From Thiomicrospira aerophila AL3 (lineage in GTDB: Bacteria; Pseudomonadota; Gammaproteobacteria; Thiomicrospirales; Thiomicrospiraceae): a stretch of DNA of 64,000 bases. The notes under the pieces are model-generated. The model searched no databases, was not told the origin of the DNA, and worked only from the letters and a program-made list of their open reading frames with translations. Shown here one piece after another: positions 34,634 through 50,460 of this stretch. The translations under genes were made by a program, and so were the position numbers. Where the stretch lies: assembly GCF_000227665.2 (NCBI RefSeq), contig NZ_CP007030.1, forward strand, positions 1,426,001 to 1,490,000, written 5' to 3'. Position 1 is the first letter of the stretch, and every line of letters starts with the position of its first letter.

Positions 34634-37105
34634 ATGCGAAAACCAAACTTTTTTGTAATGCAATGCAGCTTTATGATTAGCCTCTACTGCAAGCACCTGA
34701 TCCACGCAAGCTTCTGCCTCAGCCACCATCCCGAGATCATGATATTGCTCAGCTAAAGTAATACGTGCTCCCAGGTCATCTTTATAAACAGAAACATACA
34801 TGGCCAGAACTTCAGAACTGGCAGCAAGATTACCTAATAGCTTCAAAAGCTTCGCGTAGGTTTTCATATACTCAAGGGAAAATTGACAAAGTTGTTCAAC
34901 ATAACTTAATGCACTATTTAGATCATCGCGTGCAATAGAAATTTTTAAAAGTTCGTCTAGACAGAACCTAATATGACCATCTGCGTCAATGGAAAGGGCT
35001 TCTTTCAGTAGATCGACAGACTGCTCTAAATTACCATTAATTTTAGCTACAAGTGCTTTTGCGATAAGGCATATACCTAGTTGCGCAGTGTTAGCAGATG
35101 ATAAATCAATTACCTTGTTAAGTGCAGCAACATCACTAATCTTGTACGCAGTAAGAAGAGATTGCCACAAGGCCTCATCACTGTTACCAAGCACTCTAAG
35201 TTCATTAACCCGATTAGATACACCAAGTGAAACCAAAAAATTATTTTTAAGTTTATCAATTTTTTCCTGGACATCTTTTTCGACAGACTTTGTCGCAAAA
35301 TTTGACACGAACATTACTCGTCCAGTTTGGTCAATTTCTTCCCAAACCGCCTTAACCGCATCAAAAGAAGGCTTTCCTTCGACCATAAAACTTAACTCTG
35401 AAATGCGCAAAGCTAAACGATCTAAGCTTAATTCCAACAAACGCACAACAAAATTAGCTAACAAGTAAATAGAGTTAAACCAGGTTTGAAATGCAGCCAT
35501 TCTACTTTCAAGGGAATGTCTATTTTCTGAAGACAAGAAGACACCCTGGAATAAGCTAATATCAAGAGATACTAGATAATCTAAATCACCACCCATCTTA
35601 TTTTTTAAAACTTGATGAGCTGAATTTAAAGCTTTAAAATCCTGCTCAGAAAAAAAATAATTTTTCGATAGGCTTTTAGATTCATAATTTTTTAATGTTT
35701 TTTGAGCCAAATCTTCATATAGTTTAAACCTTTTGATAAGATTTGAAATAATAGGTATCTTTTTCTCAACAATATTTATAATGACAGACAAGTCAACATG
35801 GCTAAAAAAAACATTAACATCAAACCAAATCTCTTCTTTCAAAATAACCTTGTCTAACTCAACATAATTAACCTTATTTATTGCAGCAGACTTTGCACCT
35901 AATGAAAAAAACTTTAAGCCGGGTTGCTTGATTAAATAAAAATTAACCATCTGAGTTAGAGATTGATGCCCCTTGTAAAACTCTCTATGTGTTGTAGATT
36001 TTTCGCCTAAATTGTTAATCAATGTAAACTCTTCGCCATAGGAAGCAATACCGTCACTCTGTACCTCTTCACTCATAGACTCATGAGTTTTACCATCCGT
36101 AAAACACAAATCAATACCGGCAAAATAAATATATTTGAAGCCAAACTCAATCGCTGCACCAACCAAAGCATGTGCGACCGTTGGTCCAAACAACGAAATA
36201 TTGTCATCGTTTAGTAATGCACTACTAGCACCCAAATAAACAGAATTCCCGCCCCACTGACTTAATAAATCATTATTAACATGATAAGCATTAATTAGAA
36301 CAGGGGTTCTTATAAAACTATCCTTATCTGCAAATTTTAGAAAAGTTTTTGCATTATCAAAACTTACTTGGTAAGGATCAATAGATCCAATAAAGTCAGG
36401 GGTAATACCTTCTTTGATCAATCTGTTTGCAATACGCCCAGCCGCAAAAATAAATAGTTTATTACGATTTAACTTAACCCACTCCACCGTATCATCAAGA
36501 CTAGGCCCCCCACCCAATATCAGTGCAACTTTATTTTTAAACTTTGATTTCAAAAATTTAGCAGGTAAAATATTATGTGATAAATTTCTTATAGCTTGGT
36601 TTTCGAAATCTTTCTTTTTAGTAGCTAATATTAATGAACTTGCGTAAACATTATAAGCGGCTAGAATTTTTTTTCTAAATTCATCATACTCTACGTCAAT
36701 TATATTGGAGTATTTTTTTAATGTAGAAGAAATAGATACTAAGTTTTGGACAATTAAAGCTTCAGGTAAATAATCGGAAAATGAAAATTCACCCTCTATC
36801 AAAAAAAGACCAATCTGATTTTTTTTATCGAACCCCAGATTATTTTTCAAATTTAATTTATCTACAACCCTGGTGAATTCAAAAAAAATAAAAACCTTAT
36901 CCTTTTTTCTGTTTGATTTTTTAAAATAATCATACAAAAATCCTGAATCTGTCCCAACTATTATAAAAAAACCTTGACTAGCATCTATGAGATGTGAATA
37001 GTTACCTCTTATAACATCTTCAGATGAATATATTTGATAATCTACAGACAAGTAATCAACTAGAAATCTTTCTCCATACTTATTCTCTTCAATTGAGGCT
37101 ATCAA
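34631..37105 (-). CDS. Maf-family (DUF115) flagellin glycosyltransferase with C-terminal TPRs
   Basis: Maf proteins attach nonulosonic acids such as pseudaminic or legionaminic acid to flagellin. The DUF115 domain is seen near residues 185-400, with ALILGGGPSLDDTVEWV, EGITPDFIGSIDP, ASSALLNDD and GFKYIYFAGIDLCFTDGKTH. The last 150 residues look like TPR repeats (LGMVAEAEACVDQVLAVEANHKAALHY in part). Translation starts at a TTG preceded by GGAG. At 824 residues it is longer than many Maf proteins. The N-terminal half is strikingly AT-rich compared with the flagellar genes, suggesting a different origin. Confidence 0.85.
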   Translation of the reverse strand: MIASIEENKYGERFLVDYLSVDYQIYSSEDVIRGNYSHLIDASQGFFIIVGTDSGFLYDYFKKSNRKKDKVFIFFEFTRVVDKLNLKNNLGFDKKNQIGLFLIEGEFSFSDYLPEALIVQNLVSISSTLKKYSNIIDVEYDEFRKKILAAYNVYASSLILATKKKDFENQAIRNLSHNILPAKFLKSKFKNKVALILGGGPSLDDTVEWVKLNRNKLFIFAAGRIANRLIKEGITPDFIGSIDPYQVSFDNAKTFLKFADKDSFIRTPVLINAYHVNNDLLSQWGGNSVYLGASSALLNDDNISLFGPTVAHALVGAAIEFGFKYIYFAGIDLCFTDGKTHESMSEEVQSDGIASYGEEFTLINNLGEKSTTHREFYKGHQSLTQMVNFYLIKQPGLKFFSLGAKSAAINKVNYVELDKVILKEEIWFDVNVFFSHVDLSVIINIVEKKIPIISNLIKRFKLYEDLAQKTLKNYESKSLSKNYFFSEQDFKALNSAHQVLKNKMGGDLDYLVSLDISLFQGVFLSSENRHSLESRMAAFQTWFNSIYLLANFVVRLLELSLDRLALRISELSFMVEGKPSFDAVKAVWEEIDQTGRVMFVSNFATKSVEKDVQEKIDKLKNNFLVSLGVSNRVNELRVLGNSDEALWQSLLTAYKISDVAALNKVIDLSSANTAQLGICLIAKALVAKINGNLEQSVDLLKEALSIDADGHIRFCLDELLKISIARDDLNSALSYVEQLCQFSLEYMKTYAKLLKLLGNLAASSEVLAMYVSVYKDDLGARITLAEQYHDLGMVAEAEACVDQVLAVEANHKAALHYKKVWFSH

Positions 37106-37127
37106 ATCTTACTCCGTTTATTTAAAT

Positions 37128-37895
37128 TCAAATACTAAAACCATCATCTACAATAATATTTTGTCCATTGACGTATTTACTTTGTTCTGACAGCAAATAC
37201 ACCATTGAACCCACAATATCCTCGGGATTTAACATGCCTTTGTTTAGGCATTCTTCCCGATAGTTTTTAAGAAACGATTCCGGCTGACCATCTAATATCC
37301 CACCGAGTGTTAACGTATTCACACGGATGTTTTTATCTTTTAAATACGCCGCCATATACTCGGTTAGATGGTTTAATCCCGACTTAATAACCGCATATTC
37401 TACAGGCACTGTCATCTTTGTGCCTTCGTAGATATGAAAGCGTGGTGCGACTAAGCCATAAATCGATGAGATATTAATGATATTGCCATGCCCCTGCTCA
37501 ACAAAAAATTTCGTAAAGTGTTTTGAGACATTGAAATACCCACCTAAATGGAGCGCTACATTTTCGTTAAAGTCTTCATACTCGACATCAAAAAAATGGC
37601 GACCATAGTTTTTATTCCTTGGGTAGGCGTTATTCACCAACGCATCGATTCGTCCATATTTTTCGTGCAAGAATTGTATTTGCTGGACGATGGACTCTTT
37701 GTTCGTAATATCCAGTTCGATTACATCAATATTATCCTGTAAGCTTTCAGGCAAACTCGCTTTAGCTTGTTGGCCTTTTTCTAAACTAATATCCGCAATA
37801 ATAGCAACACCGCTATTCTGGGCAATTGCTTCGATAAAGGCTTTTCCCACCAGGCCTGCTCCGCCGGTTAGTACTACAACTTGATTATTTAACAT
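37128..37895 (-). CDS. ptmA: PtmA-like short-chain dehydrogenase (flagellin modification)
   Basis: This SDR-family oxidoreductase has the Rossmann motif TGGAGLVGKA near residues 10-19, NNAYPRN near 87, catalytic Ser in NISSIYG, and YAVIKSG with the Tyr-Lys pair near 167-171. PtmA of Campylobacter, required for legionaminic acid on flagellin, has this form and is thought to supply an amino-sugar precursor. It overlaps legF by 11 nt. The exact substrate is inferred from context. A CAGGCCTG octamer encodes part of GGAGLVG. Confidence 0.8.
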   Translation of the reverse strand: MLNNQVVVLTGGAGLVGKAFIEAIAQNSGVAIIADISLEKGQQAKASLPESLQDNIDVIELDITNKESIVQQIQFLHEKYGRIDALVNNAYPRNKNYGRHFFDVEYEDFNENVALHLGGYFNVSKHFTKFFVEQGHGNIINISSIYGLVAPRFHIYEGTKMTVPVEYAVIKSGLNHLTEYMAAYLKDKNIRVNTLTLGGILDGQPESFLKNYREECLNKGMLNPEDIVGSMVYLLSEQSKYVNGQNIIVDDGFSI

Positions 37896-38589
37896 CTTTC
37901 TTTCTCATTAAAAATTCGACAAACTCGAAATCCACTTCAGAATCTATATCGATAGATCGCTCTTCTGGCATTACAAATAGCCCGGTTTTTTCGGCAAATA
38001 AACTTGGCTGATTTAACAACGCATCTCTTGTCCATATGTAAATCGATGCATTCATATCATAACTTTTTGGGGCATCTTGTCTGCGTACGACGGTACCTTC
38101 TAGTTTCTTAGACAAAGCCACCTGCCCGTTTGCATCCACCTCAACTAAATTGAAATATGGGCTTCTACGGCTAGGCATTGCTGTGATTAAATTGCTGTTG
38201 TTGTTTGCTTTAAATTGGTTAAACGACTCGACAATATCCGCCACATCCCGCAACGGCGAAGTGGCATCTAAATCCACATGATAAGCGTAGGTTTTGCCAT
38301 AGTGCAGTTCGCTTTTTAATAAAGCATCTCGTATCACATCCAATTTCCCTGCGGTATCCGAAGACAATTCCGAAGCACGGCGAAAAAACACCTCGGCACC
38401 ATATTGTACTGCCACATTCGCAATATCATCCGAATCGGTGCTCACCACTACATGATCAAACAACTGACTTTGCAATGCCTGCTCAATGGTATAAGCAATC
38501 AAGGGCTTCCCATTGATCAGTTTAATATTTTTGTTTTTTACACCTTTAGATCCACCGCGTGCACAAATGGTACATAACACATCAGACAT
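37885..38589 (-). CDS. legF: CMP-legionaminic acid synthetase (LegF/PtmB)
   Basis: This cytidylyltransferase activates the nonulosonic acid as the CMP-sugar used by Maf. The N-terminus CTICARGGSKGVKNKNIK is the nucleotide-binding signature of the NeuA/LegF/PseF family, followed by VVVSTDSDDIA, DATSPLRDVADI and SIDIDSEVDFEF. The 234-residue length fits PtmB/LegF better than NeuA with its extra domain. It overlaps the oxidoreductase gene by 8 nt. Confidence 0.85.
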   Translation of the reverse strand: MSDVLCTICARGGSKGVKNKNIKLINGKPLIAYTIEQALQSQLFDHVVVSTDSDDIANVAVQYGAEVFFRRASELSSDTAGKLDVIRDALLKSELHYGKTYAYHVDLDATSPLRDVADIVESFNQFKANNNSNLITAMPSRRSPYFNLVEVDANGQVALSKKLEGTVVRRQDAPKSYDMNASIYIWTRDALLNQPSLFAEKTGLFVMPEERSIDIDSEVDFEFVEFLMRKKDVK

Positions 38590-39499
38590 TATTTTGTTCC
38601 TGTATCGTATTAATGGTTTGCATAATGCGCAATCCCTGCTCTAGGGTACAGACATAATGCTTTTGCTCGTTGAACAGAATTTCGTGGTGCATGGCTTGAA
38701 ACATATCGTTTCGTTGCAGCGTTTCAAATGCAAACACCTCTTTTTCACCGGTCACATGAGTTTGAATTAATTTGTTTTTAATCAAGTCGGCTTCGAGCGT
38801 AAACCCATTGGTATTGATGCGAATTAAACGGTGCGCAGACTGACTAAAATAATCCACCACTAAATTGATGATGGCTTTTTGATTCGTTTTACCAACTAAA
38901 GTCACAAGATCATCGCTGTCAATTTCTAAGTCTGACAACTTGGTTTGATAACTTTTAATTTCAAGCAAATCCCCTGCCAACCAAGCGGCATAGTCTAATT
39001 CATGACTTAAGTCGAGTAATACCCCACCACCTTCGGCTTTTTTGGCGCTATAAGAATCTCGGTAATCAATATTCGTTCGCCAGTTTGGCAGGTATGATCC
39101 ACACGCAATATTGACCGTTAAAATTTTTTGACCTTCAAGCAGGCTTTTAATTTTTTGCAATACGAGGTGAAAACGCAAGACATAACCCACATAGACTTGA
39201 TTATTTATTACTGGCAAATCGTAATGCTTTTCAAACAATGGCTTTTCACAAAATATTTTTTTGCCGCTTACCTGTTTGTTCAACCAACAAAGTTGTTCGT
39301 AGTGTTTTTTGGTTTCAGATGCGATTAAGAAGTAATCATACGTTTGAATATTCTCAACATTTTCTAAGGCCTTAAACGTTACACGCTCACTCAGGGTTTG
39401 TTTTGTAACAATGTGCGTTTCTTCAATATCAGAAAAGGTCGATAATACTTCATCGTGACGGCGTCCAATCGATCCATAACCAATTAAAAGGGCTTTCAT
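38582..39499 (-). CDS. Gfo/Idh/MocA-family sugar oxidoreductase
   Basis: The N-terminal Rossmann fold begins MKALLIGYGSIGRRH, and GKKIFCEKPLFE (near residue 80-92) is the conserved EKP motif of the Gfo/Idh/MocA family. The C-terminal part has GGGVLLDLSHELDYAAWL. It is embedded between ptmE and legF and overlaps both by 4-8 nt. It may act on the sugar nucleotide or on a glycan precursor; a PtmF-like role is possible but not demonstrable from sequence alone. Confidence 0.82.
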   Translation of the reverse strand: MKALLIGYGSIGRRHDEVLSTFSDIEETHIVTKQTLSERVTFKALENVENIQTYDYFLIASETKKHYEQLCWLNKQVSGKKIFCEKPLFEKHYDLPVINNQVYVGYVLRFHLVLQKIKSLLEGQKILTVNIACGSYLPNWRTNIDYRDSYSAKKAEGGGVLLDLSHELDYAAWLAGDLLEIKSYQTKLSDLEIDSDDLVTLVGKTNQKAIINLVVDYFSQSAHRLIRINTNGFTLEADLIKNKLIQTHVTGEKEVFAFETLQRNDMFQAMHHEILFNEQKHYVCTLEQGLRIMQTINTIQEQNNV

Positions 39500-40551
39500 C
39501 CAAACACCTCGCTATATTCTCGATTGGCTTGTTCGTATTCGTTCATGCGGCCTATGTCTAGCCAATATTCATGGATTGGGAAGGATACGGTGTTTTGATT
39601 TTGTGCGATAAGCTTTTCAAACAAGGTTGGCATATCATAGTATTCACCTTTTGGAATTTGATCGAGCGTTTGTGGGCTGAGCATATAAATGCCCGCGCTG
39701 ACAAAAAACTTATGCACGGGTTTTTCGACAATAGCCGTTACCTTGTGCCCGTCAATATTCACCACGCCGTATGGCACTTGAAAATCATATTCGCGCACGC
39801 ACATGGTCGCCGCCGCTTGATGGGTTTGGTGGTAATTCAGCAGGCTTTCAAAATTAACGTTGGTTAGCAAATCACCATTCATGACAAAAAACGCTTCACT
39901 AGGCCTGGTGGTTAATAGGCTTAACGCGCCTGCGGTTCCCATGCGCTCTTGTTCGAGCACATATTCAATCTGCACGCCAAACTTCTCGCCATTGCCAAAG
40001 TAATTTTGAATGGCATCGGCTTTGTAGTTCACACACATCACGATATTGACAAAGCCATAGCTGGCAAAACGCTCAACAATGTTAAGCAATATAGGTCTAT
40101 TACCTACCTTTAGCATTGGTTTAGGCGTATCAAGAGTAAGAGGTTGTAGACGTGTGCCAAGACCACCCACCATCAATATGACCTTATTAGTTTTTACACT
40201 TGGAGTTAAAAGTTCATCAATTATCTTTAATCCAACTACATGACTTAAATCATCAACAATTGGAATTCTATTCAGTTTTTTCTTTTTTGCTTTGGCAATT
40301 ATTTGCTGATTAGTGTCATTAATATTACAAGTAGTGGGAGCGGTATTAGTAATTCGATCAATTGTGTCACTAAAAGTTAAATCGCTTAACAAACCACGGC
40401 GAATGTCGCCATCGGTAATGGTGCCGAGCAGTTTATTATCTTCATCGACCACCAGCAAAATCTGCAACGCAGTTTGGTCAAGCAAAACCAGTGCTTCACG
40501 TATCGAGATATTTGGTCTTACCAATGTTTTTGTGTAGTCTTTCATAGGCAT
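39496..40551 (-). CDS. ptmE: PtmE-like GlcN-1-P guanylyltransferase with N-terminal CBS pair
   Basis: Two CBS domains occupy about residues 1-115 (LVVDEDNKLLGTITDGDIRRGL, in part, and NRIPIVDDLSHVVGL). The rest is a sugar-phosphate nucleotidyltransferase with MVGGLGTRLQPLTLDTPKPM near 128-147 and FFVMNGDLL. Campylobacter PtmE has the same architecture and makes GDP-glucosamine, so this pathway probably uses GDP-linked rather than UDP-linked intermediates. It overlaps the deacetylase gene by 1 nt (TAATG). Confidence 0.83.
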   Translation of the reverse strand: MPMKDYTKTLVRPNISIREALVLLDQTALQILLVVDEDNKLLGTITDGDIRRGLLSDLTFSDTIDRITNTAPTTCNINDTNQQIIAKAKKKKLNRIPIVDDLSHVVGLKIIDELLTPSVKTNKVILMVGGLGTRLQPLTLDTPKPMLKVGNRPILLNIVERFASYGFVNIVMCVNYKADAIQNYFGNGEKFGVQIEYVLEQERMGTAGALSLLTTRPSEAFFVMNGDLLTNVNFESLLNYHQTHQAAATMCVREYDFQVPYGVVNIDGHKVTAIVEKPVHKFFVSAGIYMLSPQTLDQIPKGEYYDMPTLFEKLIAQNQNTVSFPIHEYWLDIGRMNEYEQANREYSEVFG

Positions 40552-41225
40552 TACTTTTGAATTTCTTTAAGTAACATAAAACTTTCCGCATACTCACAAC
40601 CGGCTGTTGCACCGCGTAAAGTGGCTAAAGCTTCAAGGTTGCGCAAACTGCGCGGAAAAGGATGCGCGCCAATCTCACTTTTATACACCTGCATGATTTC
40701 AAGTTTTTTAGCAAAAAAATCCGTTATATCCACAAAAACATTCGGTACAAAGCTATCTTCCTTGGTGGATAAAGCAAAATCGGTTTCACTCAATGTTTCC
40801 ATCATGTAGATTTTTTTAATAAACGGATAGCGAAACGACTTGGTGCAACTATACACCGCCTCGAACATCACGCGATGATCAGAATGCACATCGCTTTTAA
40901 AAGGCAAATAAAGCACCATTGGCTGAACTTGGTTGATCACCGCAGAAACTTTATTAACTAACTCGCTGACAGAATATTGATCCACCTTCATCGTTGAAAA
41001 CCCTAAACGATGCACGCCATCAAATGGATACAGATTGGCTACGGCTTCAATCTCCGCATTGCGACTTTGAACACGCTCAAAAGAAAAACCGTCTTCCTCT
41101 TTCACTTCCGTACAAATCATCCAATGAATTTCATCACCCTTTGCTTTGTGCTTAAGCAGCGTACCTCCACAACCTAAGGTTTCATCATCGGGGTGCAATG
41201 CTACAACCAATGCCTTTTGGTTCAT
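40551..41225 (-). CDS. PIG-L/LmbE-family N-deacetylase
   Basis: PIG-L family enzymes remove N-acetyl groups from sugars using a metal held by HPDD and a later HxxH. Here these are VALHPDDETLGCGGTL near residues 9-24 and DVHSDHRVM near 113-121. The preferred ATG at 41225 overlaps the legG stop as ATGA. In this context it may free an amino group on a legionaminic acid precursor so that another acyl group can be attached; that role is inference. Confidence 0.82.
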   Translation of the reverse strand: MNQKALVVALHPDDETLGCGGTLLKHKAKGDEIHWMICTEVKEEDGFSFERVQSRNAEIEAVANLYPFDGVHRLGFSTMKVDQYSVSELVNKVSAVINQVQPMVLYLPFKSDVHSDHRVMFEAVYSCTKSFRYPFIKKIYMMETLSETDFALSTKEDSFVPNVFVDITDFFAKKLEIMQVYKSEIGAHPFPRSLRNLEALATLRGATAGCEYAESFMLLKEIQK

Positions 41226-42385
41226 ATCAAACGCCTTTTGATCAGCCACTTATCATCATCCAAATCTAGTGAATCCAAAAACTCGACAATTTTTTTATGC
41301 GCACTACCATCACCATATGGACTTTCAATTGAACTGATAAGAGAACGATAAGACTCATCCATACATGCCTGTTTAATTGCCTCAAAAATTTGCTTATCAT
41401 CATAAGGAACAAACTTAACATTCCCAGCATTAAGACGACCTTGTTGTCGGTTTCCTACATTAACTACTGGCAATTTATAGGTTGGTGCTTCCAATATTCC
41501 CATACTCGAGTTACCGACCAAACAAGAGGCGTTGCGCATTAGGTTAACAAATACTTCTCGTGGCAAAGTTTTATAAAATTTAATGGTTTCACCACAGTAT
41601 TCGTCAATAGCCTGAATAATATCGTAGGAACCTGGATCAGTATTTGGATAAATTCCAACAACCTTAAAGTTCTCTTGTTTTGCAAAACGCGCTACTGCTT
41701 GCATAGTAGTCTTCATTTGAAAATAGGCATCGCCAACCTCCGATGATAGCGGATGTTTAAGCACCACTAAATAATGGTCATCCACAATATCCATAGATAA
41801 AAATTGACTCAACTCTTCGAGCGACAAAGGTTTTGTTTCAATGATATTGTTTAATGCAGGGTTACCGGTATTAACAACCCTGAAATCCTCCTCACCCATT
41901 TTTAAAATATTATTCGCATAGTCCTGAGCTGTTGCAAAATGAATATGTGCCAACTTACTACAAGCCATCCGTATAGGATCATCCGCATTTCCATAAACTG
42001 GATCTCCTCCACCTATATGTGCCACTATAACATCCATATAGTTCCCAACCACACAGGTAGCAATACTTTCCTCTCGGTCGCCAACAAACAAAAGAAAATC
42101 GGGATTCTCACGTTCCACTGTTTGAGTAAGTGCTGTTATCAACAAACCAGCACCTTTAGCCCGCTGTGTCTTTCGATTAGTCATTAATAAAGTGTCTAAC
42201 TTATCAGCGATTTCAAAACCGTCTTTTTCAATTTTATTAAATGTACATCCATGCCAATCAGACAAATGTGCACCAGTAACCACGACTTTTAATTCGAAAT
42301 CAGGATGGCGCTCAAATTCTTTTAAAACAGGATATAAAATATCGTATTCGGAACGAATTCCTGTTATGGCAAGTACTTTTTTCAA
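41222..42385 (-). CDS. legG: Hydrolysing NDP-sugar 2-epimerase (LegG/NeuC family)
   Basis: LegG releases the nucleotide and epimerises the 2-acetamido-4-acetamido sugar to give the ManNAc-like precursor for legionaminic acid. The N-terminus KKVLAITGIRSEYDILYPVL, FLLFVGDREESIA, AHIGGGDPVYGN and CLVGNSSMGILEAP are family signatures. I place the start at a TTG (42385), 6 nt after AAAGGAG and overlapping the HAD stop as TTGA. The longer frame to 42493 runs inside the HAD gene and is unlikely. Confidence 0.86.
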   Translation of the reverse strand: MKKVLAITGIRSEYDILYPVLKEFERHPDFELKVVVTGAHLSDWHGCTFNKIEKDGFEIADKLDTLLMTNRKTQRAKGAGLLITALTQTVERENPDFLLFVGDREESIATCVVGNYMDVIVAHIGGGDPVYGNADDPIRMACSKLAHIHFATAQDYANNILKMGEEDFRVVNTGNPALNNIIETKPLSLEELSQFLSMDIVDDHYLVVLKHPLSSEVGDAYFQMKTTMQAVARFAKQENFKVVGIYPNTDPGSYDIIQAIDEYCGETIKFYKTLPREVFVNLMRNASCLVGNSSMGILEAPTYKLPVVNVGNRQQGRLNAGNVKFVPYDDKQIFEAIKQACMDESYRSLISSIESPYGDGSAHKKIVEFLDSLDLDDDKWLIKRRLI

Positions 42386-43044
42386 ATTCGCTCCTTTATA
42401 ATCTGTTTTACTTGATTTAACGACGTAATGACAATCTCTGGTAACATTAGCTCTGTGGAGTCGGCAACAAGTCGCCTGTTTGTTTTTAGCCAAATTGACT
42501 CAATATCACAAGCCATTGCGCCTTTAATATCTGTAAACAAGTCATCGCCAATAAACAAAACATCTTCCTTGTTCAAATCTAGTGAAGCTAACGCATTTAG
42601 AAATGGACGTGAATGAGGCTTTTCAAAATCACTTCCCCACTTCCGCGCATAAACAACTTCGTCAACATATTTTTCCAGACCTAACGACTTCACTTTATTA
42701 TGTTGTACTTTTAATACACCATTGGTAACAACCCCAATCTTCAAGCTTTTCAATCTAATAAAGGATAAAAGATCCAATACACAAGGCTCCATTGACAGAC
42801 TACATGAAATGGTTTGGTATAATTCAAAAAGTTCTTTTTGATAGCCTGCTGAGTAGATGCCCAAGTTTTTTAATATATCACCAAAAAAATCTGATGAAGC
42901 GTGCCTTAAACCTGAATTGTAAACATTGATAAAATCATTTAAGTCGAAATTATGGCGGTTTGAAAACTCACGAAAGACCTCTATAAAATAAAGCTTTTCA
43001 TCATAAAGCGTGTTATCCAAATCAAAAAGAATACCTTTCAACAC
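42382..43044 (-). CDS. HAD-family phosphatase
   Basis: The protein has the four HAD motifs: FDLDNTLYDE (nucleophile Asp near 8), VVTNG near 106, KPHSRPF with the conserved Lys, and FIGDDLFTDIKGA. A C1 cap of helices is present, so this is a HAD-IA type hydrolase. It sits between the ATP-grasp gene and legG and shares a 4-nt overlap with legG, indicating a role in the glycan pathway. The phosphorylated substrate is unknown; a small phosphorylated acid or sugar is possible. Confidence 0.8.
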   Translation of the reverse strand: MLKGILFDLDNTLYDEKLYFIEVFREFSNRHNFDLNDFINVYNSGLRHASSDFFGDILKNLGIYSAGYQKELFELYQTISCSLSMEPCVLDLLSFIRLKSLKIGVVTNGVLKVQHNKVKSLGLEKYVDEVVYARKWGSDFEKPHSRPFLNALASLDLNKEDVLFIGDDLFTDIKGAMACDIESIWLKTNRRLVADSTELMLPEIVITSLNQVKQIIKERI

Positions 43045-43047
43045 GCT

Positions 43048-43935
43048 CTATCTCACATATAGTTCTTGATAAGATCGGAACATTTTCATGCCCCATTTTA
43101 CTGGCTGAATATCAATAGGGTAATCTTTTACTATATGATTAATAATTTGCTCAACCCAATTATTGGTTGCCGCAAAAGATAACGCCATACCGCTTGCAAG
43201 ACGCGGGTTTATTTCAATAAAAAACACACCGAGTTCATTCTCTATGCACTGAAAATTGACTGGACCTACAAAATGTATTAAACGGCAAATTCTTTCCACT
43301 TCGTTAATAATTTGGCGGTTATTTACCAGTTCACCCTGAGTAGACTTTCCTGCTATAACCCCTAACCGCTTTCTTGGTAAGATGTATAGAGGTTGTCCAC
43401 TCTTATCACACAGTACGTCAATTGTATATTCAACGCCGTGAATTTTCTGCTGACTAATATAATCATGCATCTCAAAAGGATCCGTGGTTTCGATAATTCC
43501 CTTACCTCCGCGACCTCGACGCGGTTTTAAAAGCCTGTAGACCTGCTGTAAACTTGTTCTTGGTGTTCTGACATCGTTCTGCTCAAAAAACTGATAAGCC
43601 TTCCACTTATCTAAGAATATAGATAGGGTTGAAGCGGGAGAAGCGATTAAAGCGATATTACACTCTTTTAACCACACTTGCTGAGTCCAATCAAGTAACA
43701 TGTCATCCAGACAAGGCAGTACGACCTCCACCTGATGCTTAATTAGTTTATATTTGACATCTAACCATAAATTATCATCTGAGGTTGGCAAAAACTGAAT
43801 GTAATCATCACAAACAATAGACCCAGCATTGATTTCTGTAATATCAGAACCAACCGCTTGAAATCCAGCTTGTTTGATAGAATTGATAATAAATCCAGAT
43901 GACAAACTACCAGAAGCTTCAGTTAAGACTTTCAT
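43048..43935 (-). CDS. ATP-grasp ligase
   Basis: The fold is ATP-grasp (carbamoyl-phosphate synthase-like): an N-terminal domain beginning MKVLTEASGSLSSGFIINSIK, the nucleotide loop LKPRRGRGGKGI near 145, VEYTIDVLCDKSG near 175 and the metal-binding FFIEINPRLASGMA near 250. Such enzymes join a carboxylate to an amine through an acyl phosphate. The ATG at 43935 overlaps the methyltransferase stop as ATGA. Close to a deacetylase gene, it could re-acylate a sugar amine; this is inference. Confidence 0.8.
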   Translation of the reverse strand: MKVLTEASGSLSSGFIINSIKQAGFQAVGSDITEINAGSIVCDDYIQFLPTSDDNLWLDVKYKLIKHQVEVVLPCLDDMLLDWTQQVWLKECNIALIASPASTLSIFLDKWKAYQFFEQNDVRTPRTSLQQVYRLLKPRRGRGGKGIIETTDPFEMHDYISQQKIHGVEYTIDVLCDKSGQPLYILPRKRLGVIAGKSTQGELVNNRQIINEVERICRLIHFVGPVNFQCIENELGVFFIEINPRLASGMALSFAATNNWVEQIINHIVKDYPIDIQPVKWGMKMFRSYQELYVR

Positions 43936-44630
43936 AAATTTTTTAACACCAAGTGCCACCTAGAAATAAAGTCACCTGAATGAACATTGATTTTCTTAAT
44001 TAAAAAAATTTCTTTAATTTCAAAGTAATGACTAATTAATGTGTTTATTTTGGAGTAATTGTAGTAGGATTGAACCGTTCCGTACTCATGTGCAGTAGTA
44101 ACTACTTCATCGTCGCTATATTCTTTCGAATGCATGGAGTCATCTCCAGAAACCAAGTCGATATAAAACAATCCGCCTTTTTTTATCACTCTTGATGCTT
44201 CTGCCATACCTTGCTTTGCAATATCAAAGTACATGCTGTCAAAAACACCATGGCTAATCGCGAAATCAAAGTAATCATTTGCCCAAGGCATATCTGTCAC
44301 GCTACTCGTAACAACTTTTGAGTCATCGACTTGTATATTTTTAGTTTCAAGCCATTTTTTTGTTAGCTTGATGGCCTCTTCTGAAAGATCTATAGCATGA
44401 ATATCAAGACCCAGTTCACTTGAAAACACAACATGCCGACCACGTCCACATCCTATATCCAAAACACGGGGAATAGGTTCAAAATGACACTTATCTACAA
44501 ATTTAGCCAAATCCACTCTTTTTCTTATGTACGTTGAAAAGAAACGAATTATTTCTTCATGTGGGTACATAACATGACCATCATCTTGTGAATAAAATTT
44601 TTCCCAAAACTCTTTTTTCAACTCTACCAT
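43932..44630 (-). CDS. Class I SAM-dependent methyltransferase
   Basis: Motif I is VLDIGCGRGRHVVFSSELG (about residue 56-74), followed by an acidic loop HAIDLSEEAI and MPWANDYFDFAISHGVFD, typical of the UbiE/Methyltransf_11 group. It lies between the TylF-like gene and the ATP-grasp gene. The ATG at 44630 has GAG 8 nt upstream; a GTG at 44639 overlapping the preceding stop is an alternative. The substrate is not evident; an O- or N-methyl on the nonulosonic acid decoration is plausible. Confidence 0.78.
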   Translation of the reverse strand: MVELKKEFWEKFYSQDDGHVMYPHEEIIRFFSTYIRKRVDLAKFVDKCHFEPIPRVLDIGCGRGRHVVFSSELGLDIHAIDLSEEAIKLTKKWLETKNIQVDDSKVVTSSVTDMPWANDYFDFAISHGVFDSMYFDIAKQGMAEASRVIKKGGLFYIDLVSGDDSMHSKEYSDDEVVTTAHEYGTVQSYYNYSKINTLISHYFEIKEIFLIKKINVHSGDFISRWHLVLKNL

Positions 44631-44635
44631 AGTAA

Positions 44636-45346
44636 TCACTCTATTATTGTATAGGAAATATTGGGGTCAAAATTGAACCGCTTTAACCTTAGAGTATTTA
44701 GTTTAAAGGCTTCAAGTAAAGCCTGTGTCTCACCCGGCCAATTGGGATTATTTATCTCATCAAATACTATAATCGCACCTTTTGGCATTCTAGGCAGCAT
44801 GTGTTCAAGCAAGATTTTTGTAGGTTCATATAGATCAAAATCACACACTAAAAGACTACATAAAAAATGAGGATTTTCTTTTAAAAAACGAGGCACCGAT
44901 TCAGCGACGTCGCCTTTTACTAACTTCAACTTATCAAACTGATTAAGAAATCGGTTTTCATCATAAATATATTTAAGCTGATTTAACTCTTCAAAAACAT
45001 TAAATCCAGTATTAAACCCGCCAACCTTTCTTTGTTCATTTGAAGTTATAGTTTGCTCATCATTCTGATGCACACTTGGAAAACCTTCAAACGTATCAAA
45101 ACCCACAATCCAGCGATCTAAAGCATAAGGCTCCAAGGCTGACGATAACTTTGCCCAACCTAATAGGCCCGCTCCATGATGAACACCGCCCTCCACAATT
45201 GAACCCTTTACATCCATCTGTAGCTTAAAAACTTCGTATCTAGCTAAAAATCTAGACAAACTCTGTCTTCGCGCGTACTTTTCAAATTGATCCAATTTAA
45301 GCTGCGTATCCGTTGGATTCGCATTCCATATATCATGTACTGCCAT
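44636..45346 (-). CDS. TylF/MycF-family O-methyltransferase
   Basis: The sequence GSIVEGGVHHGAGLLGWAKL near 49-68, WIVGFDTFEGFPSVHQND and IVFDEINNPNWPGETQALLEA match the macrocin O-methyltransferase (TylF) family, metal-dependent sugar O-methyltransferases. It is the first gene of the tailoring sub-cluster; GGGAG lies before the ATG. It follows a 242-bp non-coding stretch that separates it from the DUF1016 gene. Confidence 0.8.
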   Translation of the reverse strand: MAVHDIWNANPTDTQLKLDQFEKYARRQSLSRFLARYEVFKLQMDVKGSIVEGGVHHGAGLLGWAKLSSALEPYALDRWIVGFDTFEGFPSVHQNDEQTITSNEQRKVGGFNTGFNVFEELNQLKYIYDENRFLNQFDKLKLVKGDVAESVPRFLKENPHFLCSLLVCDFDLYEPTKILLEHMLPRMPKGAIIVFDEINNPNWPGETQALLEAFKLNTLRLKRFNFDPNISYTIIE

Positions 45347-45588
45347 TACTACTCCCTCGGCTAGCTAATTAAATGTCAGTTGTTTAACTCTTTTCAAACT
45401 ATATTAAATTCTTAATAAGATTCATCACTGACCGCGTCTGCATTGATGCCTGCTCTAAATGTATCGTACGACCAGCTAATTTCTGCAGACAGTGTCTGCA
45501 GTTTTGTATTTTACTTTCGACTCGATAAACGTTTTACCACCAGGCCTGGTTGTTTTTTGCCACGGATGAACACGGATTTGCGCGGATG
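45347..45588. other. 242-bp intergenic region with dyad and repeats
   Basis: This is the largest protein-free gap inside the glycan cluster, lying between the DUF1016 gene and the TylF-like gene. It holds a perfect 19-bp dyad at 45483-45501, a CAGGCCTG palindrome extended to ACCAGGCCTGGT at 45539-45550, and three CACGGAT-type repeats at 45561-45590. I see no convincing promoter or gene in it. Confidence 0.7.
45483..45501. repeat. Perfect 19-bp dyad
   Basis: CTGCAGACA and TGTCTGCAG form perfect 9-bp arms around one central base. The single-base centre makes an RNA hairpin unlikely and a protein-binding operator or recombination site more likely. It is about 140 bp upstream of the TylF-like start codon. 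No known site was recognised. Confidence 0.8.
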
Positions 45589-45590
45589 TT
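45561..45590. repeat. Three 10-bp direct repeats of CACGGAT type
   Basis: The segments CACGGATGAA, CACGGATTTG and CGCGGATGTT follow one another with exact 10-bp phasing and end at the stop codon of the DUF1016 gene. Similar CCACGGAT/ACACGGAT runs are, to my knowledge, found near nuclease-like cargo genes in many bacteria, so this may be an end or scar of a mobile unit. That comparison was not checked here. Confidence 0.7.
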
Positions 45591-46686
45591 ATTTTTCACT
45601 AATATTCTCCGCTGCTAGCTCTTTTAAATCGTCTTTTACCAAAGCTTCTAGCTCTTTGGTACTGGGCAGCATGATTTGGTATTTGGATACAAATAGGTTT
45701 TTATCCAAGCCAGCGGTAGCATACTCTACTTTGATATTGTTTTTTTCGGTGCACAGTATGATGCCGATGGGCGGGTTGTCGCCCTGCATGGAAATTTCGT
45801 TTTTGTAATAGTTTAGGTAAAAGTTCATTTGTCCGACATCGGCATGGCTAAAAGCTCTGACTTTTAGATCGACTAATACATGGCATTTGAGTATGCGATG
45901 ATAAAACACGAGATCAATCCGGTCGTGTTCGTTTTCAATCGATATTCTTTTTTGTCTGGCTTCAAAACAAAACCCTGTGCCGAGTTCGAGTAAAAAGGCT
46001 TCGATGTGATTCAGCAAGGCCGTTTCTAAGTCGGTTTCGCTGTAGGTTTGCTTTGGTTCTAAGCCGGTAAATTCAAGAATGTAGGGTTCTTTAATTATCG
46101 CTGTTGGATTAAAAACTTCAGTTTTGTTTTCTAACGATTGCAGTAGCGCTTTTTTATCAATGGATAAGCCGACACGTTCATAAAGCAAGGATGCAATTTG
46201 CCGTTTAAGTTCCCTAACACTCCAGTTGCCTTTTATGGTTTCGACTTCATAGAAAGTGCGCTTGAGTTCGTCGTCGATTTTGACCAATTCAATAAAATGG
46301 GTAAAGCTACAGCTTCTTAGCAGTTTTTCTGCAGGCACTTTTAAAGCCGATGACGATTGGTCAATCACTGATTGACTTATTTCTATATCGATTTTGAATT
46401 GGTCAGTCAGTGATTGACCAATTTGTGGATAGGTTAGATAAAACTGGCGCATGAGCTTTAATGCAGTAACTGACATCCCTTTGATATGGGCGAGTTTTTG
46501 CGCTAGATTCTCTATAAGCCTGATACCATAGGCGGCTTTATCGCCACCGTTTTGCTCATATTCGACTATGTAATAACCTATCACGAAGTTGCGCAGGGTT
46601 AGGTTCACGCTCACGCTTTGCAAAGCTTTGGCTTGAAAGGTTTGGTGGACCGTGTTAATTGTGGTTATGAGGTTATCGAGGTTCAT
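45589..46686 (-). CDS. DUF1016/PDDEXK nuclease-family protein (YhcG-like)
   Basis: The 365 residues show the DUF1016 layout: N-terminal helical part (to about 175) and C-terminal PDDEXK nuclease domain with DRIDLVFYHRILKCHVLVDLK near 257-277, carrying the active-site Asp and Glu/Asp-x-Lys. Between them is a linker with QSLTDQF-QSVIDQSS repeats. The start ATG overlaps the legI stop as ATGA, so it is translationally coupled to a sugar gene it has no obvious link with. The family is often associated with mobile elements and recombination-promoting activity. Its role here is unknown. Confidence 0.85.
   Translation of the reverse strand: MNLDNLITTINTVHQTFQAKALQSVSVNLTLRNFVIGYYIVEYEQNGGDKAAYGIRLIENLAQKLAHIKGMSVTALKLMRQFYLTYPQIGQSLTDQFKIDIEISQSVIDQSSSALKVPAEKLLRSCSFTHFIELVKIDDELKRTFYEVETIKGNWSVRELKRQIASLLYERVGLSIDKKALLQSLENKTEVFNPTAIIKEPYILEFTGLEPKQTYSETDLETALLNHIEAFLLELGTGFCFEARQKRISIENEHDRIDLVFYHRILKCHVLVDLKVRAFSHADVGQMNFYLNYYKNEISMQGDNPPIGIILCTEKNNIKVEYATAGLDKNLFVSKYQIMLPSTKELEALVKDDLKELAAENISEK
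46356..46376. repeat. Dyad repeat copy A inside DUF1016 gene
   Basis: This 21-bp unit contains GTCAATCA-C-TGATTGAC, a perfect 17-bp dyad, and repeats with two changes at 46398-46418, 42 bp on. It encodes part of the linker between the two protein domains. Confidence 0.75.
46398..46418. repeat. Dyad repeat copy B inside DUF1016 gene
   Basis: This copy matches 19 of 21 bases of the unit at 46356-46376 and is itself a near-perfect dyad (GGTCAGTCA-G-TGATTGACC, one mismatched pair). Confidence 0.75.
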
Positions 46687-47684
46687 ATCAAATCATCTGC
46701 CTGATAATCTTTTTGCGCGACTTGGCCGATGATTTCGTTCCACCGCATCGGTGAAATACCCAGGCCTGGTCGTTTGACGGTGAGGTTGTGTTCGCTAAAG
46801 AGGTCGCCTTTTTTAATGTCGGTAAGGGCTACGAGGCTTTTACGGGCAACCTGCCTATTTTTTTGTTCGTTGGCGCTTGGGCGTTTGATAGCATCTCCAA
46901 GCGCGATTTCAATATTGCGAATGGCTTTGACCATCGCTTGGAGTTCTTGCGGCTCTAAGCTGGCTTTGTGATCGGGGCCGGGCAGGTTTTTATCGAGCGT
47001 AAAGTGTTTTTCAATAATCGATGCGCCTAAAGCAACCGCTGCGGTCGGCACTTCGATGCCCGGCGTGTGATCAGAGTAGCCCACCTTGACTTTGAATGCC
47101 TGTGCAATCGTTTGCATGGCGGTTAGGTTGACGTCTTGCATTTGGGTTGGGTAGTCGGTGGTGGCGTGTAAAAGGGTTATTTTATCTTTATCTGTGCCCG
47201 ATTCGATTAACAGGCTTAAAGCCGCTTCAATGTCTGCGAGCGTTGCCATACCCGTTGAGAGCACGATTTGTTTGTTGTACGCGCCAACCATTTTTAAATA
47301 CGGATAGTTAGTAATCTCACCCGATGGAATTTTAAACCGCTTCACACCTAGGCTGTTTAAAAACTGAATGCTCGGTAAATCAAACGGCGTGGACATAAAT
47401 TCAATCTGTTTTTGCTGGCAATAACCAACCAATTCATGATGATCCGCCTCGCTGAGTTCGAGGCGTTTTAGCATAGCAAACTGGCTTTCTTGTTTACCTG
47501 TATTTGCAATTTGATAGTCGGCTTGTTGGGCTGATTTGGTGACGAGATTTTCCGCTTTAAAGGTTTGAAATTTTACCGCGTCTGCACCGCACTTTGCCGC
47601 CACATCAACCAGTTGTTTAGCCAGTTCTAGTGAACCGTTATGGTTAACACCGGCTTCGGCAATAATAAAAACTGAATGTCTCAT
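46683..47684 (-). CDS. legI: Legionaminic acid synthase (LegI, NeuB family)
   Basis: LegI condenses the 2,4-diamino-hexose with phosphoenolpyruvate to make the nine-carbon acid. The family start MRHSVFIIAEAGVNHNGSLE, DAVKFQTFKAENLVTKSA and the later TDYPTQMQDVNLTAM, GYSDHTPGIEVP and IIEKHFTLDKNLPGPDHKASL are clear, with a C-terminal SAF (antifreeze-like) domain from about 280. I use the ATG at 47684, which overlaps the legH stop as ATGA and has GGAG upstream. A CAGGCCTG octamer lies near the 3' end. Confidence 0.9.
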   Translation of the reverse strand: MRHSVFIIAEAGVNHNGSLELAKQLVDVAAKCGADAVKFQTFKAENLVTKSAQQADYQIANTGKQESQFAMLKRLELSEADHHELVGYCQQKQIEFMSTPFDLPSIQFLNSLGVKRFKIPSGEITNYPYLKMVGAYNKQIVLSTGMATLADIEAALSLLIESGTDKDKITLLHATTDYPTQMQDVNLTAMQTIAQAFKVKVGYSDHTPGIEVPTAAVALGASIIEKHFTLDKNLPGPDHKASLEPQELQAMVKAIRNIEIALGDAIKRPSANEQKNRQVARKSLVALTDIKKGDLFSEHNLTVKRPGLGISPMRWNEIIGQVAQKDYQADDLI

Positions 47685-48322
47685 TTCGTCTCCAATAAAC
47701 GCCCTTGATTTACGTAACAACCCGACCTGGTGATGTTATTTAAAATTAACGCGCCCGCGCCAACCATTACGTTATCGGCAAGTTCTACGCCTTGTTTAAT
47801 CACCACGCCGCTGCCGATAAAACAACCGCGCCCGATTTTGACGTCCCCGTTAATTTTGGCACCGGTAGCAATATGGCAATCATCGCCAATCACTACATCA
47901 TGCTCAATTAACGCTTGGCTATTGATAATGCCGTTTTGACCTATTTGTGCGCCAGCATTCACCAACGCCTGATGCATCACAACTGTACCCGCCCCAATGA
48001 TGGCATGCTGTGAAACATAGGCTAAGGGAGATACCAGGCCTGGTTGTTTATAGCCTAGCGTTTTGAGTTGTTCAAATAATCTCACCCTTGGTTCGGAAAG
48101 CCGAATTTGCCCGATGGTTACCAAGGCATAATCGTATTGTTTTCGCAGTTCAGGCAAATCCTCATCACAGCCAATCACCGGATAACCCAACACCGTTTTC
48201 ACCCCGGAGTCTTGGCGGTCGATAATCCCCGCAATCTGCCATTCACCTATCTGCTCAATGACATCAATAGAGGCCTTGCAATGCCCGCCTGCACCCACCA
48301 ATAAAATCGATTTTTTAGCCAT
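47681..48322 (-). CDS. legH: Sugar N-acetyltransferase (LegH/PglD family)
   Basis: This left-handed beta-helix acyltransferase acetylates the 4-amino group of the NDP-sugar made by LegC. The N-terminal domain starts KSILLVGAGGHCKASIDVIEQ and the hexapeptide repeats run from about 90 to 205 (IIGAGTVVMHQALVNAGAQIG, in part, and IGRGCFIGSGVVIKQGV). The His of the catalytic site is likely in QALIEHDVVIGDDCHI. The ATG at 48322 overlaps legC by 8 nt. Confidence 0.85.
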   Translation of the reverse strand: MAKKSILLVGAGGHCKASIDVIEQIGEWQIAGIIDRQDSGVKTVLGYPVIGCDEDLPELRKQYDYALVTIGQIRLSEPRVRLFEQLKTLGYKQPGLVSPLAYVSQHAIIGAGTVVMHQALVNAGAQIGQNGIINSQALIEHDVVIGDDCHIATGAKINGDVKIGRGCFIGSGVVIKQGVELADNVMVGAGALILNNITRSGCYVNQGRLLETK

Positions 48323-49469
48323 CACAACGCACCCCGCTTGGCACATTCACTACCCGCGCTGCCAACCAGTCGGTATTCGTCATGTCGGTGCGCAAACAAT
48401 CGACATAGATTGCCAGTTGATGCATCGGTGTCCATAAAGGCCTAGTTTGAATATGTTGGCGGTTACTGAATTCTAAAAACGCGTTACGTTCGGCTTCAGA
48501 CTCGCATAACAGGGCGTTCAGCCAGTAATTCGACTGAGTGTTTGTTGGTTCGTTCAGTACCACTAGGCCTGATTGTTGTTGATATGCCTGTGCCAAAGCG
48601 CGCTTTTCTGTCAAAAAAGCCGGCAGCTTTTGCATTTGTGCTACACCCAGCGCGGCATTAATATTCGGCATACGCAAATTATAAGCCGGCTCATCGTGTT
48701 CAAATAACCAAGCATGCGGCACTTTGGCGGTGGTGCTTAAGTGTTTGGCGTGACGAGCGAGTTCGGCATTATTGGTAATCAGCATGCCGCCTCCACCGGT
48801 GGTGATGACTTTATTGCCGTTAAAACTAAACACCCCAACTTGGCCGAAACGTCCAGTATGCTGACCTTGATAAAAACTGCCTAAACTTTCAGCCGCATCT
48901 TCTACCAGCGCAATATTGTGTCGGTTACAAATTTCTAAAATCGCGTCAATACGCGCAGGAAAACCCAAGGTGTGCATCGGCACACAAGCGCGAATCACCC
49001 GATCGGTTTGGCGATGCACGCATTCACCGTTTTGTTGTATCGTCTGTTCGGTTAAAAAATGGTTAAGTGATTCAGGACACAAGCCCAAGGTTTCGCGCTC
49101 GACATCAACAAACACCGGATCGGCTTGATGCATTTTGATCGCGTTCGGCGTGGCAACAAAGGTTAAAGATTGCGTGATGACCAAATCATTTGCCTGCAAT
49201 CCAATCACCTTTAACGCCAAATGCAACCCCATTGTGCCATTCACCACCGCCACCGCATGTTTAGCGCCAGTAAAATCGGTAATTTGTTGTTCAAACTCAG
49301 TCACGTATTGCCCGACCGATGAAACAAAAGTCGAATCAATGCAATCCACCACTAAACGTTTTTCGGCCTCGTCAAAACAGGGCGCATGTAATGGAATTAA
49401 GCCTTCCGCTTGCTGATAATGTTGGCGAATAAACGCCATCATAGACAACCAGGCCTGCTGGTTAGACAT
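48315..49469 (-). CDS. legC: NDP-4-keto-sugar aminotransferase (LegC, DegT family)
   Basis: LegC transfers an amino group to C4 of the keto-sugar from LegB. The PLP-dependent DegT/DnrJ/EryC1 signatures are VAVVNGTMGLHLALKVIGL, VEDAAESLGSFYQG and GVFSFNGNKVITTGGGG, where the Lys binds PLP. The N-terminus IPLHAPCFDEAEKRLVVDCID fits the LegC type. It overlaps legB by 8 nt and legH by 8 nt. Confidence 0.88.
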   Translation of the reverse strand: MSNQQAWLSMMAFIRQHYQQAEGLIPLHAPCFDEAEKRLVVDCIDSTFVSSVGQYVTEFEQQITDFTGAKHAVAVVNGTMGLHLALKVIGLQANDLVITQSLTFVATPNAIKMHQADPVFVDVERETLGLCPESLNHFLTEQTIQQNGECVHRQTDRVIRACVPMHTLGFPARIDAILEICNRHNIALVEDAAESLGSFYQGQHTGRFGQVGVFSFNGNKVITTGGGGMLITNNAELARHAKHLSTTAKVPHAWLFEHDEPAYNLRMPNINAALGVAQMQKLPAFLTEKRALAQAYQQQSGLVVLNEPTNTQSNYWLNALLCESEAERNAFLEFSNRQHIQTRPLWTPMHQLAIYVDCLRTDMTNTDWLAARVVNVPSGVRCDG

Positions 49470-50460
49470 TGTAGCGCCCAGTTTTATAGGCTTTTAAATT
49501 TTGCGGCTGAACAAACCAGTTGATGGTTTGTTGCAGTCCGCTTTCCAGTGAGGTAGTTGGGCTATAGCCGGTCAAGGTTTTTAACTTGGTATTATCCCCC
49601 CACAAACGAAACACCTCAGAATCTTTCGGTCTTAGACGTTGCGCATCCTGCACAAACTCGACGTTTGAACCCATTAAACGTTTAATCAACTCCAAGGTAT
49701 CTTGAACTGAAATTTCGTAATTTGAGCTGATATTAACGGTTTTGCCAATAGTGTTGTCGCTGGCCATTAACGCCATCATGCCTTGACAGGTATCGCTAAC
49801 ATAATTAAAGTCGCGCGTCGGGCTGGTATCGCCTAACTGAATTTGGGTTTGACCAGCGGCAATCTGACCGATAATAGTCGGAATCACCGCCCGTGCCGAT
49901 TGCCTTGGGCCATAAGTATTAAACGGTCGCGCAATCGTCACAGGGGTTTCAAACGCCAAAAAATACGACATCGCCATCGCATCCGCGCCGATTTTACTCG
50001 CGCTGTAAGGTGATTGCGGCTGCATCGGATGATTTTCATCAATCGGAACATATTGCGCTGTGCCGTAGGTTTCCGAAGTGGAGGTATGCATAAATCGACG
50101 CACGTGTTGATCACGCGCTGCCTGCACCATATTCAAGGTGCCGGTCACATTGGTATCGACATACGAACCTGGCGCAATGTAAGAATAAGGAATGGCAATT
50201 AACGCCGCCAGATGAAACACGGTATCGATGTTTTTGCAGATTGTTTGACACAAAAACGGATCACGAATGTCACCGCTGATAATCTCCATCTCATTCGCTA
50301 ACGGGCTTTGATCCAGCCAGCCCCAAGTATTAAACGAATTATATTGCACAAGCGCACGAACATCCGCGCCCGCCAATACAAGGGCTTCAACTAAATGCGA
50401 TCCAATAAAGCCATCAGCCCCTGTCACTAAAACCTTTTTGCCCTTCCAGAATTTTGCCAT
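49462..50460 (-). CDS. legB: NDP-GlcNAc 4,6-dehydratase (LegB)
   Basis: LegB starts the pathway by converting GDP- or UDP-GlcNAc to the 4-keto-6-deoxy sugar. It is an extended SDR with VLVTGADGFIGSHLVEAL near 10-27, TSTSETYGTAQYVPIDE with the Thr of the active site, and YSASKIGADAMA with the Tyr-Lys pair. The C-terminus QQTINWF and YKTGRYNV is typical of LegB. Presence of ptmE favours the GDP-sugar substrate. It is the first glycan gene after the mltC-like gene, 52 nt downstream. Confidence 0.88.
   Translation of the reverse strand: MAKFWKGKKVLVTGADGFIGSHLVEALVLAGADVRALVQYNSFNTWGWLDQSPLANEMEIISGDIRDPFLCQTICKNIDTVFHLAALIAIPYSYIAPGSYVDTNVTGTLNMVQAARDQHVRRFMHTSTSETYGTAQYVPIDENHPMQPQSPYSASKIGADAMAMSYFLAFETPVTIARPFNTYGPRQSARAVIPTIIGQIAAGQTQIQLGDTSPTRDFNYVSDTCQGMMALMASDNTIGKTVNISSNYEISVQDTLELIKRLMGSNVEFVQDAQRLRPKDSEVFRLWGDNTKLKTLTGYSPTTSLESGLQQTINWFVQPQNLKAYKTGRYNV

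Follow-up and report, generated by a model that had tools for sequence, protein, structure and literature searches.

What do four enzyme genes that lie outside the standard legionaminic acid pathway do in a flagellar legionaminic acid cluster, and do they form a unit that is exchanged between strains? The question arises in a 64,000-nucleotide stretch of the single-contig, 2.16 Mb genome of Thiomicrospira aerophila AL3 (positions 1426001–1490000; this whole stretch is called the window, and coordinates below are counted within it), whose minus strand carries a flagellar legionaminic acid (Leg) cluster in the order legB-legC-legH-legI, DUF1016/YhcG, TylF-MTase-ATPgrasp-HAD, legG-PIG-L-ptmE-ptmF-legF-ptmA-maf (MTase, methyltransferase). 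An earlier note, made from the sequence alone, had described the four genes at 42382–45346 as an exchangeable tailoring set that has no place in the standard Leg pathway and defines the strain's flagellar glycan. The four consecutive minus-strand genes are present at exactly these coordinates, each overlapping its neighbour or lying 3 bases from it, and their family assignments (below) bear out that they stand outside the standard pathway. We think it rather probable that, together with a special form of LegG, they make up a mobile N-acylation and methylation module, situated between legI and the PIG-L gene, that acts by the mechanism proposed below; it probably adds an extra methylated acid group to the flagellar sugar.

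Linkage and recurrence of the gene families

Three of 94 relatives, the host counted, have the ATP-grasp gene, and a profile search of 62 family genomes placed TylF in the identical three genomes as ATP-grasp (G000, G024 and G026), an exact match expected by chance with a probability of ~2.6e-5 if TylF were distributed at random (uncorrected for relatedness). For comparison, NeuC/LegG is present in 33 of 63 and PseI over its cut-off in 25 of 62 family genomes. Within the family TylF never occurs without ATP-grasp, and the two are paired in Leg and pseudaminic acid (Pse) settings alike: G026 has the order TylF-MTase-ATPgrasp-LegG-Maf-PIG-L, without HAD, and G024 has TylF-MTase-ATPgrasp-HAD in the same order as the window, adjoining PseI and near PseG, PseF and PseC in a cluster that includes a Maf gene, its four proteins being 22–35% identical to those of the window (ATP-grasp, 23%). 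TylF and ATP-grasp are therefore linked and jointly present in 3 of 62 genomes, absent from most relatives, and the four-gene combination recurs beside Pse genes in G024 and Acetoanaerobium; the genes are neither conserved in all relatives nor scattered without linkage.

The same families lie in nonulosonate (NulO) loci of distant bacteria. Vibrio jasicida has LegC-ATPgrasp-HAD-LegG-PIG-L-LegI-LegH-PtmE-LegF, without methyltransferases, in an apparent lipopolysaccharide or surface-polysaccharide locus; an Ensifer adhaerens megaplasmid has LegB-LegC-PtmE-LegG-PIG-L-LegI-ATPgrasp-HAD; and G485, from another class, has TylF-ATPgrasp-HAD-LegG. Among Pse clusters, Acetoanaerobium noterae (Bacillota; a 2.6 Mb record classed among plasmids) has ATPgrasp-HAD-MTase-TylF-PseI-PseG-PseC, with the pairs rearranged, following genes for the flagellar hook and flagellin; G358 has PseC-PseF-PseG-MTase-ATPgrasp-HAD-PseI, and G783 has the ATPgrasp-HAD pair beside a flagellin-like gene. 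HAD adjoins ATP-grasp in eight of the nine NulO loci compared. Hence the set is less fixed than the earlier note supposed: ATP-grasp is its constant member and HAD is almost always present, whereas the methyltransferases are additions, and some relatives do without TylF, without the second MTase or even without HAD. The ATP-grasps of Leg type, five in number, group in a single clade (support 100/100) separate from the Pse-type proteins, which were not resolved as one group. A scan of viral contigs found no relative.

Could the four genes instead be surface-glycan genes of no relation to each other that accumulated by chance at a recombination hot spot, with no joint function? The low GC of the whole region, the DUF1016, ORF6N and DUF4062 genes that also gather at the junction after legI, and the occurrence of the same ATP-grasp family in other polysaccharide loci would fit such an origin. 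Chance accumulation, however, does not readily explain why the same families recur next to NulO synthases of distant phyla and why TylF and ATP-grasp share 3 of 3 carriers among 62 genomes, nor does it account for the apparent translational coupling of the genes or for a LegG that forms a matching subclade (below), and we regard it as very unlikely. That the module defines the flagellar glycan is plausible where maf and flagellar genes are adjacent, as they are here, in G024 and in Acetoanaerobium; against this as a general statement stands the Vibrio jasicida core in its apparent surface-polysaccharide locus.

Extent of the exchanged block

Nucleotide comparison with relatives delimits the block. 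Homology to G002 (90.6% over 4.76 kb) ends at 46682, the end of legI, and G022 matches both flanks, legI at 82% and ptmE-ptmF-legF-ptmA at 74% over 3.4 kb (37136–40546), with one ordinary legG only between them; in G007 the order is legI-legG-formyltransferase-PIG-L. The left flank is thus the conserved backbone legI-legH-legC-legB (46683–50460) and the right flank, common to G022, is ptmA-legF-ptmF-ptmE (37128–40551). The curated models for LegB, LegC, a NeuD-type acetyltransferase, a NeuB-type synthase and the NeuC-type LegG all pass their cut-offs in this cluster (TIGR04180, 505 versus 475 bits; TIGR04181, 526 versus 420; TIGR03570, 197 versus 161; TIGR03569, 529 versus 400; and TIGR03568 for LegG, 370.8 versus 235.9). 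The simplest reading is that [legG-formyltransferase] or a plain legG was swapped for [TylF-MTase-ATPgrasp-HAD-legG], presumably in that direction. With its variable presence (3 of 62 genomes) between flanks conserved in relatives (G022 and G002), the set is an exchangeable cassette.

The legG gene (41222–42385) travels with the four. The window LegG is 61% identical to that of Vibrio jasicida and ~30% to those of its own family, and a tree of 25 LegG proteins unites those of the five Leg clusters that carry ATP-grasp in a single clade (100/100; 1 label change), in loci that had been collected by way of ATP-grasp and not of LegG. L010, whose ATP-grasp is more distant and whose LegG branch is long, was omitted from this tree and falls outside the clade in another. 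By comparison, the LegGs of formyl clusters are scattered (4 label changes, 5 rows), as are the LegIs of ATP-grasp clusters (3 label changes, 3 rows); LegI of the window shares 94% identity with LegI of G002. Grouping of LegG by nucleotide type was rejected, since L005 has a UDP-type dehydratase and the window and L129 have LegB. LegG is a hydrolysing 2-epimerase and acts at C2, beside the nitrogen that becomes N5; therefore an altered acyl group would meet its active site. The clade can be read in two ways, as co-transfer of neighbours or as specificity for a substrate that has already been altered when it reaches LegG.

Base composition agrees with this boundary in part. The GC contents of the four genes are 0.348–0.382 versus 0.454 ± 0.024 for 31 other window genes (z −3.0 to −4.4), so the AT-richness claimed for them is real, but they do not own it: at third codon positions (GC3) they have 0.30–0.33 and legG 0.29 (0.41 ± 0.05 for the 31 other genes), PIG-L to ptmA have 0.39–0.41 and legB to legI 0.48–0.49, so that legG lies in the same low-GC3 block and low GC extends to maf. 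Because legG shares the GC3 and low GC reaches maf, low GC alone does not mark the four genes. The maf gene (34631–37105) is the most AT-rich of the cluster (GC 0.33, z −5.0), has only ~25–29% identity to relatives' maf, and so looks as if it too had been exchanged. It is taken to encode a putative Maf-type flagellin nonulosonate transferase from 24–29% full-length identity to the Maf proteins beside related clusters.

The PIG-L gene (40551–41225) was considered as a further member of the block and rejected; the PIG-L phylogeny does not track ATP-grasp, and for that reason we treat it as a partner outside the exchanged block. The linked, recurring and variable module of the earlier note is therefore upheld as to its nature and enlarged as to its extent: the unit appears to be five co-inherited genes (TylF, MTase, ATP-grasp, HAD and legG) with PIG-L as probable partner. 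The overlaps are in keeping with this. TylF/MTase, MTase/ATP-grasp and HAD/legG overlap, and ATP-grasp and HAD are separated by 3 bases; the likelier ATP-grasp start is the ATG at 43935, overlapping the MTase stop, the legG start is a TTG overlapping the HAD stop, and the PIG-L ATG (41225) overlaps the legG stop, so the four genes look translationally continuous with legG and PIG-L.

By its contents the block is not a mobile genetic element with mobility functions of its own: no integrase or transposase is among the family-matched genes of 34631–50460, and there are only weak short repeats and no flanking terminal repeats. The intergenic region on one side of the module, described earlier as repeat-bearing, holds only short weak repeats, one palindrome and a TCCGTGTTCATCCGTGG motif but no clear boundary repeat; the repeats do not explain the boundary, and as a mobility signal they were rejected, being weak and single-copy. 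The palindrome, a perfect 9+1+9 CTGCAGACA-C-TGTCTGCAG at 45483–45501 between DUF1016 and TylF, is a possible regulatory site or terminator remnant. The motif TCCGTGTTCATCCGTGG (45560–45576), just downstream of the DUF1016 gene, is absent in shuffles, single-copy in the genome and perhaps a relic.

The DUF1016/YhcG gene itself (45589–46686; Pfam YhcG_C, 191 bits), which encodes a PDDEXK nuclease and lies between legI and the module, is probably a passenger. Such genes, with 32–39% identity, occupy the junction just after legI here, in G002 (L043 9310–11186) and in G046 (L059 5875–8471), accompanied in the latter two by ORF6N or DUF4062/HATPase_c_4 genes, and this junction may be a hot spot for defence genes within an operon for the flagellar sugar.

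Predicted enzymes and a proposed reaction sequence

In the slot that corresponds to that of the module, other clusters of the family have genes that by sequence are the acetamidino genes WbpG-HisF-HisH (G002, G013 and G019) or a formyltransferase-PIG-L pair (G007, G016 and G020), and the slot is empty in other clusters. Four Leg clusters (window, L005, L009 and L129) have PIG-L together with ATP-grasp, and the same PIG-L type accompanies a formyltransferase in five others; these pairings suggest deacetylation followed by re-acylation. In Pse clusters the place of PseH holds a formyltransferase (G039, G031 and G045) or, in G040, an ATP-grasp accompanied by a sulfolactate synthase of ComA type; in G008 and G017 the cluster includes an AMP-ligase. 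The seven PseH-less loci read besides G024 have three formyltransferases, one other ATP-grasp, two AMP-ligases and, in G004, none of these. In G040 (L166 5232–7926) a fused ComA/2-phosphosulfolactate phosphatase protein is followed by the ATP-grasp ligase, adjoining PseI, and the pair might supply flagellin with a sulfolactyl nonulosonate. In G117 (L010 4797–7923) the more distant ATP-grasp stands before legI together with an aminotransferase and a protein resembling D-2-hydroxyacid dehydrogenases, as if producing and ligating a hydroxy acid.

The families of the individual proteins are as follows. The first gene (44636–45346) encodes a predicted metal-dependent, TylF/CalS11-type sugar O-methyltransferase (Pfam TylF, PF05711, 30.9 bits versus a gathering cut-off of 23) and is the sole copy in the genome; its best solved relative is the TDP-rhamnose 3'-O-methyltransferase CalS11 (E 1e-35), D169, D171, D196 and E197 are invariant across five relatives, and methylation of a sugar hydroxyl would be predicted from family membership. 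The second (43932–44639) is a class I S-adenosylmethionine (SAM) methyltransferase (Methyltransf_11, 59.7 bits versus 21.2) with a 46% identical ortholog in the same position in G026, and its family differs between Leg and Pse settings. The third (43048–43935, reading frame open to 43959) is a predicted ATP-grasp amide-type ligase (ATP-grasp_3, 58 bits versus 23.2; Pfam ATPgrasp_Ter also matched) that keeps the E-x-N metal motif, with E241 and N243 invariant, and its profile reaches 2pn1, carbamoyl-phosphate synthase and the amide ligase PylC; an AlphaFold model made with two sequences had a pLDDT of 36, and from genomic context we infer that the protein forms an amide bond on a NulO precursor. 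The fourth (42382–43044) is a HAD-IA hydrolase, probably a small-molecule phosphatase (HAD_2, 82.8 bits versus 23.8; TIGR02253/YjjG-like, below equivalog cut-offs). The partner is a predicted PIG-L/LmbE-type N-deacetylase (Pfam PIG-L, 79 bits), 82% identical to the PIG-L that comes after the formyltransferase in the congener G007.

We propose that PIG-L would strip the N-acetyl group from the nucleotide-sugar precursor, probably at the nitrogen that becomes N5, and that ATP-grasp would then couple the exposed amine, at the expense of ATP, to a small carboxylic acid, either a hydroxy acid or an amino acid. HAD, as a phosphatase, might make that acid from a phosphorylated metabolite or dephosphorylate the product, and TylF and the MTase would methylate the added group, a step that could equally come later than LegG. 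The specialised LegG would then process the altered precursor, native LegI and LegF would complete CMP-Leg, and Maf would transfer the modified Leg to flagellin. The added group rather than the sugar is favoured as methyl acceptor because TylF occurs in the family only with ATP-grasp, in both Leg and Pse clusters; our best single guess for this group, held with low confidence, is di-O-methylglyceroyl.

Might ATP-grasp add glutamate or another amino acid, to be N-methylated by one MTase while TylF methylates the sugar and HAD is accessory? The N-methyl-glutamate Leg of Clostridium botulinum flagellin (PMC2674064), the weak resemblance of ATP-grasp to the tyramine-glutamate ligase MfnD and to PylC, and the resemblance of TylF to nucleotide-sugar O-methyltransferases all point that way. 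On the other hand, TylF accompanies ATP-grasp in Leg and Pse clusters of differing stereochemistry and is absent without it in the family, which favours an acyl acceptor, and HAD is left without a clear role; we therefore judge this version rather unlikely. Highly improbable is the suggestion, prompted by weak similarity of HAD to N-acylneuraminate-9-phosphatase (E 3e-7), that HAD dephosphorylates a nonulosonate 9-phosphate and that the four genes work towards a second nonulosonate, distinct from the first. LegB makes a 6-deoxy sugar, so the resulting nonulosonate is 9-deoxy and cannot bear a 9-phosphate; LegB is present here (TIGR04180 over cut-off), HAD follows ATP-grasp in Pse clusters too, and YfnB and PH1655 match HAD equally well or better. 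This role for HAD was rejected on pathway chemistry.

Several points weigh against the proposed acylation and methylation sequence. Native LegI must tolerate the altered sugar, LegG may cluster through co-transfer rather than through specificity, the ATP-grasp of G026 (a genome 81% complete) has no HAD next to it, and the compared loci of ATP-grasp/HAD type number only nine. Furthermore, PseH over its cut-off was not found in the module-bearing Pse clusters G024, G783 and G358 (in the Acetoanaerobium record the GNATs score ≤55 bits versus a cut-off of 93 and lie elsewhere), but a control recognised PseH in 13 of 25 PseI-positive family genomes and not in the other 12, so this absence is not significant alone. 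The argument that ATP-grasp replaces PseH because PseH is absent is weakened accordingly, and the absence is consistent with such replacement.

Likeness to known nonulosonate tailoring

We put at about even the wider proposal of a tailoring system not described before: a portable ligase module of ATP-grasp and HAD, to which methyltransferases may be added and with which a LegG subclade has co-evolved, would exchange the N-acetyl of Leg or Pse for a methylated acid, would alternate in one slot with the formyl and amidino modules and would have spread between phyla. Flagellin nonulosonates vary between strains in their N-acyl groups and many substituents lack assigned enzymes; the portable module with its LegG subclade marker would give a testable genetic rule leading from cluster to substituent, and its enzymes are candidates for the synthesis of modified legionaminic acids. 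That one slot harbours several alternative chemistries suggests that change in the exposed portion of the sugar is selected for, perhaps under pressure from grazers or from phages that bind the flagellum.

How does this arrangement compare with known systems? Flagellin nonulosonates whose N-acyl groups are methylated or derive from amino acids have been described. In Campylobacter jejuni, Cj1295-dependent di-O-methylglyceroyl pseudaminic acid is found on flagellin (PMC3068675); a small acid carrying two O-methyl groups is believed to take the place of the N5 acetamido group after its cleavage, and the present module with its partner offers a deacetylase, a ligase and two methyltransferases. 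The C. jejuni system differs in that Cj1295 is aminopeptidase-like, no PIG-L or ATP-grasp is described and the sugar is Pse, not Leg. No Cj1295-like aminopeptidase-domain protein is among the family-matched genes of 34631–50460, no search with Cj1295 itself having been made. The C. botulinum flagellar glycosylation island, in which the genes for the substituent are unassigned (PMC2674064), is alike, by its published description, in being variable and in placing Leg with a methylated ligated acid on flagellin. In the sfmABCDE operon of Shewanella oneidensis, methyltransferase and ATP-grasp genes are needed for a flagellin modification with an O-methylated extra moiety (PMC3765264). The combination of a SAM methyltransferase with ATP-grasp in a flagellin nonulosonate operon is shared, but sfmE is a 412-aa ATP-grasp_4 protein, a TPP (thiamine pyrophosphate) enzyme is included, and no HAD, TylF or PIG-L is described. 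In open-licence literature we found no paper linking TylF, or formyltransferase plus deacetylase, to legionaminic acid. CalS11, MycF and TylF belong to the same family as the first gene (the E value above being to CalS11) and act on antibiotic sugars, unlike the use proposed here. Closest in position are the PIG-L/N-formyltransferase and WbpG-HisF-HisH acetamidino modules, which occupy the same slot in the same bacterial family, the former with the 82% identical PIG-L; they differ in bringing formyl or amidino chemistry and no ATP-dependent acid ligation. The system is a variant of known nonulosonate tailoring.

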